Virus record (IMG/VR): IMGVR_UViG_3300012920_000040
Coordinates: 1 to 61,804 of that record
Length of the DNA: 61,804 bases
Strand: one strand, 5' to 3'
From: a virus
Part shown: positions 9,594 to 35,606 of the stretch, piece after piece
Position numbering within the stretch: position 1 is the first letter of the stretch
Layout of the letters: each line of letters opens with the position of its first letter
Made by a program: the position numbers and the translations under genes
Notes under the pieces: model-generated
Told to the model about the DNA's origin: nothing
Databases searched by the model: none
The model's input: only the letters and a program-made list of their open reading frames with translations

Positions 9594-9793
9594 GAGTCCC
9601 TCTTGAGCACTATGAGGAGGGTGGTAGACCCAGAGACCCTGAGTACATCCTCATGCTCATCTCAGAACTAGAAGGGTCCTATCAGTCCCTGAAGTTCATG
9701 GGTTTCAAAGAAGATGCTGAGATCATCAATGAGATGAAGAAACCATACTACAAACTTTACTTCAAGACCAAGAAAGAAAGGGGCTTGACATAA
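9590..9793 (+). CDS. Hypothetical soluble protein
   Basis: 67 residues from a TTG start overlapping the previous stop (TTGA), with GGAGGG upstream. The sequence suggests a small helical protein (DPEYILMLISELEGSYQSLK). No family recognised. The TTGACA -35 box of the next promoter overlaps its last codons. Confidence 0.7.
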   Translation: MRVPLEHYEEGGRPRDPEYILMLISELEGSYQSLKFMGFKEDAEIINEMKKPYYKLYFKTKKERGLT

Positions 9794-9814
9794 ATAGCTA
9801 CAATGGTCTATACT
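9785..9814 (+). promoter_or_regulatory. Sigma-70-like promoter of the riboswitch transcript
   Basis: -35 TTGACA (9785-9790), 18-base spacer, -10 TATACT (9809-9814). The predicted transcription start near 9821 places the riboswitch right at the 5' end of the RNA. ATAAATA-like bases (9790-9796) overlap the spacer. Confidence 0.75.
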
Positions 9815-9822
9815 AGACCTGT

Positions 9823-9878
9823 CGTTCATCAGACCTTAGGTCTGACGCAAGTAAGTCGCGGAACGGAGCGTTCATCCC
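9823..9878 (+). promoter_or_regulatory. Predicted glutamine-II (Downstream-peptide) riboswitch
   Basis: CGTTC (9823-9827) pairs with GAACG (9861-9865) as P1; CAGACC/GGTCTG (9830-9835 with 9839-9844) forms a hairpin; ACGCAAGTAAGTCGCGGAACG between them matches the conserved core of the glutamine-binding glnA/Downstream-peptide RNAs of marine cyanobacteria and their phages, as I recall it. A second CGTTCATC (9869-9876) can pair with the same GAACG, closing a hairpin over GGAG, the likely Shine-Dalgarno site of the 53-residue peptide at 9879. Confidence 0.8.
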
Positions 9879-10040
9879 ATGGCAGAGTTCCTGTTGTACA
9901 CTAGCCTTCTATGTGAAGATGCTGATGCTATCATGCTCAGGATCGAAAAACATGACAGGTTGGAATCCAATATTAAATTGGAACTTGTTAAAACAATTAA
10001 GGAGTCTACTCCTCATTGTCCTTGGGACGCACACGACTAA
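9879..10040 (+). CDS. Riboswitch-controlled small peptide (Downstream-peptide type)
   Basis: 53 residues beginning MAEFLLYTSLLCEDADAIML and ending CPWDAHD, the kind of short conserved protein found behind Downstream-peptide RNAs in marine cyanobacteria and cyanophages. Start is supported by GGAG ten bases upstream. No enzymatic motif. By analogy with small proteins under glutamine aptamers in cyanobacteria that inhibit glutamine synthetase, it may touch nitrogen metabolism, but the sequence itself does not show this. Confidence 0.85.
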   Translation: MAEFLLYTSLLCEDADAIMLRIEKHDRLESNIKLELVKTIKESTPHCPWDAHD

Positions 10041-10080
10041 AGGAACGGATTAAAAACCCAACTACTTTAGGAGTAAACTA

Positions 10081-10248
10081 ATGAACACACTCAACCTCAT
10101 TAGAAAGCAGATCAAAAAGGCAGCTGCCCTTCATGATGCTCAGATCAGTCACACCTCATATCGTGGTGTTGAGTATGATACTCGTTGTGTAGAGTCTAAA
10201 GAGACTCATGGCACCTTCTGCTACCGTGGAAAGACTTATTCAAAGTGA
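10081..10248 (+). CDS. DUF4278-like small protein
   Basis: 55 residues with two YRG-containing segments (SYRGVEYDTRCVE and FCYRGKTYSK), the pattern of a small cyanobacterial/cyanophage family I place tentatively in DUF4278. Good AGGAG 8 bases before the ATG. Function unknown. It probably lies on the same transcript as the riboswitch peptide 40 bases upstream. Confidence 0.8.
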   Translation: MNTLNLIRKQIKKAAALHDAQISHTSYRGVEYDTRCVESKETHGTFCYRGKTYSK

Positions 10249-10277
10249 TTGACAATCACAACTGAATAGTTTATACT
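10249..10277 (+). promoter_or_regulatory. Sigma-70-like promoter abutting a terminator
   Basis: -35 TTGACA (10249-10254), 17-base spacer, -10 TATACT (10272-10277). The terminator stem starts at 10278, so a transcript starting around 10284 would lack most of the 5' arm and escape termination. Confidence 0.7.
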
Positions 10278-10304
10278 GGGAGGACTTATATCCTCCCTTT
10301 TTTT
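10278..10304 (+). terminator. Rho-independent terminator
   Basis: GGGAGGA (10278-10284) pairs with TCCTCCC (10291-10297) around CTTATA, followed by seven T. The next ATG starts at 10305, immediately after the T tract. Confidence 0.88.
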
Positions 10305-35521: not shown

Positions 35522-35606
35522 GGGAGTGTGGCGGAATAGGTAGACGCACCAGACTTAAAATCTGTTGAGCATTATGCTCGTGGGGGTTCAATTCCCCCCA
35601 CTCCTA
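35522..35606 (+). tRNA. tRNA-Leu (anticodon UAA)
   Basis: 85 bases. Acceptor GGGAGTG (35522-35528) pairs with CACTCCT (35599-35605) with one G-U pair; anticodon loop CTTAAAA with TAA at 35556-35558; long class-II variable arm GAGCATTATGCTC; T arm GGGGG-TTCAATT-CCCCC. CCA is not encoded. UUA/UUG codons are common in AT-rich phage genes, which fits a role in matching phage codon use. Confidence 0.95.

Follow-up and report, generated by a model that had tools for sequence, protein, structure and literature searches.

Glutamine riboswitches of T4-like cyanophages are already in print as Rfam matches (PMC9964418, PMC9602691), and a cyanophage homolog is listed under RNA-Puzzle 14 (PMC6806525). For the host RNAs, passages of PMC6698751 and PMC6316151 describe an ON logic. 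According to PMC6316151, type 2 glutamine riboswitches in marine picocyanobacteria go together with DUF4278 genes, and the N-terminal part of IF17, the factor that inactivates glutamine synthetase in cyanobacteria, is covered by DUF4278. Tandem glnA RNAs are mentioned in PMC2864571.

How does the leader analyzed here compare with these systems? The window, by which we mean the whole stretch of DNA under study, is a complete IMG/VR virus record of 61,804 bases. A preliminary description of the locus took it for a glutamine-II riboswitch that starts at its own promoter and controls the translation of a 53-residue peptide. A glutamine-riboswitch-like cyanophage leader starting at its promoter is what we find as well; as to the class, relatives of the element support a three-way junction of the glutamine-I kind instead. 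We think it probable that the leader is a nested riboswitch of the glutamine-I kind, acting as a translational ON switch for a DUF4278 gene and enclosing a further ORF. The features of the locus, with helices as predicted, are the following.

9785-9814, plus strand: sigma-70-type promoter, TTGACA-18-TATACT (TTGACA 9785-9790, TATACT 9809-9814)
9823-9827, plus strand: 5' strand of P1 (first CGTTC), pairing with 10043-10047; canonical pairs in the window
9829-9845, plus strand: P2 hairpin (9829-9835/9839-9845), with two-sided changes
9846-9853, plus strand: J2/3, CGCAAGTA, with G9847, the counterpart of a ligand-contact nucleotide, and the presumed 5' strand of loop E
9854-9858, plus strand: 5' strand of P3, AGTCG, pairing with 10034-10038; compensatory changes
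9861-9873, plus strand: P1' hairpin GAACG-GAG-CGTTC, the hairpin of the preliminary description; in 48 of 48 peptide-found relatives and in the RNAalifold prediction
9865-9868, plus strand: GGAG, likely Shine-Dalgarno sequence of the enclosed ORF
9875-9879, plus strand: 5' strand of P2', TCCCA, its last base the A of the ATG, pairing with 10023-10027
9879-10040, plus strand: enclosed ORF, 53 aa, PHROG 504, within the P2' loop; stop codon TAA 10038-10040
10023-10047, plus strand: 3' half of the aptamer, with the 3' strand of P2' (10023-10027), J2'/3 (10028-10033), the 3' strand of P3 (10034-10038), J3/1 (10039-10042) and the 3' strand of P1 (10043-10047)
10037-10042, plus strand: 5' strand of the platform helix, CTAAAG, containing the ORF stop codon; pairs with 10065-10070, exclusive with P3 and J3/1
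10065-10070, plus strand: 3' strand of the platform helix, CTTTAG, overlapping the Shine-Dalgarno sequence AGGAG (10069-10073)
10081-10248, plus strand: gene of a DUF4278 protein, 55 aa, PHROG 545
10278-10304, plus strand: terminator-like hairpin and T run, likely end of the unit

The landmarks from which the preliminary description started, namely the TTGACA/TATACT promoter, the two copies of CGTTCATC (9823-9830 and 9869-9876), the first GAACG (9861-9865), GGAG and the ATG of the 53-aa ORF (9879), are all where it placed them. A second GAACG (10043-10047), together with the 3' half of the aptamer, is located where the ORF ends, and the element thus extends to about 10080, beyond the end at 10040 assigned to it before. 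The promoter upstream of the leader matches at 11 of 12 positions with an 18-nt spacer, and a promoter-like site precedes the first CGTTC in relatives as well. The −10 box sits inside a palindrome, GGTCTATACTAGACC (9807-9821), as it does in related loci. Over 143 upstream stretches from such loci the palindrome arms average 5.9 bp, against 3.9 when shuffled, and they differ widely in sequence among relatives (GGTGTTATAATAACACC, AGGGTATAATAACCCT, ATGGTATAATTACCAT), as if palindromy rather than sequence were kept there. Further downstream (10249-10304), a promoter-like TTGACA-17-TATACT ends where the terminator-like hairpin with its T run begins, so that transcription from it would begin inside the hairpin. 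Elsewhere in the record we noted a PhotoRC-II RNA ahead of a psbA-like reading frame at its start (1-86) and a tRNA gene at 35522-35606.

DNA like the element occurs in 430 phage records and the peptide was found in 318; in both cases the names are all Synechococcus, Prochlorococcus, cyanophage or marine. Viral pattern scans followed by a parser yielded at least 199 distinct phage elements, the window's own included. Because the scans demanded fixed aptamer strings, P1 and P1' are invariant partly by construction outside the peptide-found set, the 48 viral contigs retrieved by tblastn with the peptide alone as a control for this selection. In that set the second CGTTC copy is conserved in 48 of 48 contigs, as the preliminary description would have it, and lies at most 25 nt from the ORF start; the hairpin GAACG-GAG-CGTTC over the Shine-Dalgarno site of the ORF is likewise conserved in all 48. 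The first CGTTC copy and AAGTAAGTCG are present in 47 of the 47 contigs with 60 nt or more of upstream sequence; the ORF end has the block GACGCA.ACG.CT.AAGGAACG in 47 of 48, contig L049 stopping within the ORF. Judged from sequence comparison, the conserved repeats are more than chance. Among the matches listed, 167 of the 199 elements have a P2' loop of ORF length and 32 a short one. A window-type set of at least 147 elements comprises 142 ORF carriers and 5 elements without the ORF. A scan of host genome contigs gave 10 stretches, with the element in six (L278, L279, L284-L287) and absent from four (L280-L283). Of the two whose ORFs were inspected, L278 encodes proteins like the window's own and L287 reads phage-like; that the remaining four element-bearing contigs are phage contigs is our guess. 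L284, a 188-kb contig named for the non-cyanobacterium Nonlabens xiamenensis, contains the element, both CGTTC copies included, and this points to a cyanophage contig within the Nonlabens xiamenensis assembly.

What fold do the repeats build? Comparison of the elements supports one larger nested glutamine-I-like structure from 9823 to 10047. Its outer junction would consist of P1 (9823-27/10043-47), P2 (9829-45) and P3 (9854-58/10034-38), and an inner junction within P3 would consist of P1' (9861-73) and P2' (9875-79/10023-27), the P2' loop being the entire 53-codon ORF. Nesting pairs the first CGTTC with the second GAACG, and the hairpin GAACG-GAG-CGTTC is then a part of the fold and no rival to it. 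The proposal that GAACG chooses between the two CGTTC copies does not fare well: P3 covariation, RNAalifold and most above-threshold Rfam matches in ORF-less relatives favor nesting.

The P2 hairpin varies freely among relatives and its changes are compensated. Similarly, among the matches listed, the P3 strands differ yet stay paired (AGTCG/CGACT, AGTCA/TGACT), some forming longer P3 pairs with unpaired positions between (AGCCGACTC/AAGCCGACT, AGCCGACGC/ACGCCGACT, AGACAACTC/AAGTTGACT), and the 31 distinct strand pairs outscore 5000 of 5000 permutations. Among the matches listed, 166 of 167 elements close P2' over the ORF with 4 or more pairs in a row, L121 being the exception; in the window-type set its pairs are UCCC/GGGA, UCCU/AGGA, UCCU/GGGA, UCUC/GGGA, UCCG/CGGA and UCUA/UAGA, with one mismatch in the 147 elements (again among the matches listed). 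In the set X alignment (25 of 25 sequences), 99.8% of the cells are paired under the nested structure and 9 pairs are changed on both sides. The two-sided cells number 68 against a shuffled mean of 20.5, which 0 of 500 shuffles reach; two of the five measures are weaker, with pairs showing a two-sided change reached by 19 of 500 shuffles and further pair types by 53 of 500. In the set M alignment (28 of 45 distinct sequences) the corresponding values are 98.9% and 7 pairs, with 37 two-sided cells against a shuffled mean of 9.0 (0 of 500 shuffles). RNAalifold, given no structure, returned the spanning P1, P2, P1' and P2' from 27 natural ORF-less elements (27 of 30 extracted, with L205, L229 and L264 left out); P3 is absent from this prediction because its columns are gapped. 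P1 and P1' are invariant in all comparisons, and since they never vary, covariation cannot prove the spanning P1. In the three-way junction P1/P2/P3, two-sided changes speak for P2 and P3, and RNAalifold together with the Rfam matches of relatives speaks for the spanning P1. As for the window's own sequence, AGTA at 9850-9853 would be a loop E strand, AAA stands where many relatives have GAA, and J3/1 is AAAG where the consensus is GAAG.

To which class does the leader belong? RF01739 (Glutamine-I) matches the window at 9821-9869 with 22.6 bits, below the cut-off of 35 (E 0.015 in a 451-base search, 4.9e-4 in a single-record search), and RF01704 (Glutamine-II) has no match in the window at E≤10, nor in the single-record search. 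The covariance models that the preliminary description looked to for confirmation thus answer weakly or not at all, and a stand-alone glutamine-II aptamer was rejected because the window lacks an RF01704 match. Among the matches listed, 20 of the 32 ORF-less and 20 of the 167 ORF-carrying elements were scanned. RF01739 is passed by 8 of the 20 ORF-less sources, six of them spanning both repeats (for example, L138 with 46.4, L249 with 40.3 and L226 with 38.4 bits) and two local to the second copy (L190 with 35.3 and L252 with 37.7 bits), and by 0 of the 20 ORF carriers. RF01704 is passed locally in two ORF-less relatives, L226 (34.0 bits) and L259 (35.7 bits). Because the window lies under the RF01739 cut-off and no scanned ORF carrier passes it, we file the window as a divergent relative and not as a member by score. 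As ligand-contact nucleotides, PMC6698751 gives C1:G59, C58 and G22, and for published structures it gives the contacts C1:G40, G2:C39 and G18. Mapped by hand, the counterparts of the former are C9823:G10047, C10046 (paired with G9824) and G9847; those of the latter are C9823:G10047, G9824:C10046 and G9847 in the outer junction and C9869:G9865, G9870:C9864 and G10029 in the inner one. The counterparts of C1:G59, C58 and G22 are invariant in both alignments. We infer that glutamine is the ligand of the leader.

Other arrangements were also seen. In L205 (3340-3478) the P1' loop, between the inner GAACG and CGTTC, is enlarged by an extra hairpin of about 45 nt; L216 is one phage leader with two complete glutamine-I-like aptamers, head to tail; and L193, L196 and L213 have simple glutamine-I-like leaders that precede microproteins some 17 residues long, DUF4278-like by appearance (for example, MKEVTLVYRGVKYTKKV).

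Which gene would the leader control? The preliminary description named the peptide and missed the DUF4278 gene; the peptide ORF lies inside the aptamer, and it is the DUF4278 gene that bears a covarying platform and is likely the main regulated gene. In the window-type set, CTRAAG (the ORF stop TRA with parts of P3 and J3/1) is complementary to CTTYAG by the Shine-Dalgarno sequence of the next gene. Among the matches listed for this set, the stop codon TAA occurs with TTTAG in 51 of 52 elements (one is without the motif) and never with TTCAG; the stop codon TGA (n = 95) occurs with TTCAG in 63, with TTTAG in 27 and without the motif in 5; and the full platform motif is missing in 7 of the 147. 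When the five elements without the ORF and those without the platform motif are dropped, 135 remain, and removal of 6 with short downstream DNA leaves 129 loci. Trees of these 129, among the matches listed, have 20-21 stop-base changes and 29 platform-base changes; changes of both on the same branch number 9 or 14, depending on the tree, against about 2.3 expected, and all are toward pairing. None of the 129 has an A:C mismatch in the platform (shuffled mean 19.9). In the window, the helix 10037-42/10065-70 is exclusive with the aptamer and covers the start of AGGAG. The unconstrained minimum free energy fold of 9821-10090 (−78.3 kcal/mol) includes the platform helix and P1', and the aptamer-constrained fold (−72.7 kcal/mol) lies 5.6 above it, no ligand being considered. 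Since the ligand-free minimum contains the platform helix, the ligand-free state should hide the DUF4278 start and the ligand should free it. The window protein itself (10081-10248) matches DUF4278 (PF14105) with E 9.4e-5 and 23.1 bits, not reaching the cut-off of 25.3. Among the matches listed, a YRG motif is present in 171 of the 174 distinct downstream proteins of relatives, and all 24 diverse ones that were scanned, of those 174, match DUF4278 at E≤0.1 (best 1.8e-13). The phage DUF4278 protein may act on host nitrogen metabolism. At the level of sequence, these comparisons establish that P2, P3, P2' and the platform are paired, that an ORF is enclosed and that DUF4278 is the partner gene.

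Among the matches listed, an ORF of at least 30 aa that starts no more than 30 nt past CGTTCA is present in 167 of the 167 long-loop elements, with the ATG 3-5 nt after CGTTCA in 165. In 158 of these 167 carriers the stop codon has one fixed position, 7 nt ahead of the GAACG end, and the C-terminus is DAND in 122 and DAHD in 14, which fits a constraint of the RNA on the last codons of the ORF. GGAG precedes the second CGTTC in 142 of 142 window-type ORF carriers, and the five ORF-less window-type elements have GGAT (3), GGAG (1) or GGGTA (1), again among the matches listed; this fits GGAG being the Shine-Dalgarno sequence of the ORF. Other lineages include ORF carriers without GGAG (L177, L184, L188), with other linkers such as GGAT in L177 and L188. 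In the ORF-less window-type relatives (L138, L182, L226, L247, L249) a short hairpin joins the halves and a DUF4278-like gene follows directly. The enclosed proteins are of more than one family (phrog_504 in 15 and phrog_13397 in 3 of 21 scanned), and an alignment of 21 diverse relatives from 162 distinct proteins has two invariant cysteines. Family members are hydrophobic at their start and are predicted to form a helical hairpin; some seem to bear signal peptides. An AlphaFold model of the enclosed protein has two helices (mean pLDDT 79) and no PDB structure match at E≤0.001; Pfam and PDB sequence searches gave nothing on its function. The first hairpin can be large as well: among the matches listed, P2 is gene-sized in 39 of 199 elements, short in 159 and undetermined in 1. 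Each of the 39 has an ORF in its P2' loop in addition, and none of 2000 permutations scores as high as their long P2 helices. The P2-enclosed protein is usually a different small protein (phrog_6471 in both that were scanned); in L076 the frame in the gene-sized first hairpin is only 18 aa. The isolate S-SCSM2R has an element with a gene-sized P2.

We propose that the leader would work as follows. With glutamine bound, P3, J3/1 and P1 would hold the strand CTAAAGG in the aptamer; its pairing with CTTTAG (10065-70) would thereby be blocked, the DUF4278 Shine-Dalgarno sequence (10069-73) would be free, and DUF4278 would be translated (ON). In this ligand-bound fold the enclosed ORF should be silent, since its Shine-Dalgarno sequence would be confined to a loop of 3 nt and its start codon would stand at the base of P2'. 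When glutamine is lacking, the platform helix would form and DUF4278 would be off. A ribosome finishing the ORF would occupy the 3' half of the aptamer and the platform strand, so that translating the ORF should work against sensor folding, and vice versa. We infer an ON polarity and a reciprocal control of the ORF and DUF4278. In a fuller form, which we give an even chance, two glutamine sites placed back to back on one P3 would enclose one ORF (in P2') or two (in P2 too), binding would cap the ORF start and free DUF4278, the two proteins would be opposed by host glutamine, and the last codons (DAND-stop) would be set by the RNA. If the inner junction also binds glutamine, it would grip the stem whose loop is the Shine-Dalgarno sequence of the ORF.

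Could the halves instead be two small local glutamine aptamers, each CGTTC pairing with the next GAACG and no P1 spanning the element? This reading was taken first and became a rival because of the spanning Rfam matches and the P3 covariation, and we now regard it as unlikely. It draws on the presence in either half of CGTTCA, a P2-type helix, GACGCA and GAACG, on the local matches to RF01739 (L190, L252) and RF01704 (L226, L259) given above, and on a P1 pairing that is sequence-identical under tandem and nested models. However, the AGTA side of loop E is in the first half only and the GAAGG side in the second only, P3 joins both halves with compensatory changes, RNAalifold returns a spanning P1, and 6 of the 8 RF01739 matches above the cut-off span both halves. 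Under this unlikely arrangement the second aptamer would hold the ORF in its P2 loop, and the control of DUF4278 would be unchanged.

Translation of the ORF, and not a ligand, might open the platform helix, the RNA serving as a protein-independent scaffold or being a degenerate riboswitch. The window-type stop codon does lie within the platform helix and co-varies with it, the ORF end is fixed in 158 of 167 carriers among the matches listed, and ORF carriers score low in Rfam. We nonetheless consider such leader-peptide coupling quite improbable: among the matches listed, 32 of 199 elements have the RNA but no ORF, the five ORF-less window-type elements retain the platform too, the ligand-contact counterparts are invariant in both alignments, and conserved encoded proteins with two invariant cysteines go beyond a leader peptide's needs. 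Hardly credible by now is the model of the preliminary description, a glutamine-II riboswitch with GAACG switching between the CGTTC copies and the peptide alone controlled. Its hairpin is conserved and covers GGAG, with the start codon 10 nt downstream, and host glutamine-II elements, according to PMC2864571, likewise precede small ORFs; but RF01704 is unmatched in the window, the second CGTTC is present in ORF-less relatives too, mostly without GGAG, and the covarying platform is on the next gene. We retain the nested glutamine-I-like riboswitch with its enclosed ORF as the best explanation.

Among open-licence PMC papers, none that we found describes a glutamine aptamer enclosing an ORF or the control of DUF4278 in phages, and the DUF4278 literature found there does not mention phage. 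Cyanophage glutamine riboswitches are already known, and with respect to that literature the new point would be the enclosure of a gene within the aptamer; the tandem glnA RNAs of PMC2864571 may include some nested elements. If the proposal is true, this is a natural aptamer that stays closed around a gene, and riboswitch loops are able to host and control ORFs. It would explain a small conserved gene pair of T4-like cyanophages ('T4-like GC 430' and '937' in S-SM2). The virus may read the nitrogen state of its host; if so, phages would read it directly, via a type of gene that the hosts control likewise. Furthermore, Rfam-style searches miss ORF-carrying riboswitches, 0 of 20 ORF carriers passing against 8 of 20 ORF-less relatives.

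Finally, how does the element stand beside the known systems? The methylophage Melnitz glutamine riboswitch is likewise phage-encoded and resembles glnA; it is reported with a tmRNA gene, and the available portion of PMC9004378 does not mention an enclosed ORF or a DUF4278 gene. With glutamine-II (Downstream-peptide RNA, RF01704) the phage element shares CGTTCA, GGCGCA/GACGCA and GGAACG beside the ribosome site, and, as PMC6698751 and PMC6316151 describe the host RNAs, the proximity to small ORFs, the DUF4278 partner genes and the ON switch; however, a glutamine-II aptamer is a pseudoknot that the peptide follows, whereas the phage element has the ORF inside and a P3 helix. With glutamine-I (glnA RNA, RF01739) it shares P1 CGTTC/GAACG, P2 from CATCC, GACG(C/G)AAGTA, P3 closed beside GAAGG, the three-way junction and, as reported in PMC9964418, PMC9602691 and PMC6806525, the occurrence in cyanobacteria and cyanophages. 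It differs in that P3 carries an inner junction (P1', P2'), the window scores under the Rfam cut-off, P2' and sometimes P2 enclose a protein-coding ORF, and the stop codon belongs to the expression platform. Likewise, host gifB/IF17 and the picocyanobacterial DUF4278 genes, as presented in PMC6316151, have the same expected ligand class and the same controlled protein domain, whereas the phage DUF4278 proteins are very short with YRG repeats and are accompanied by an extra, enclosed ORF.
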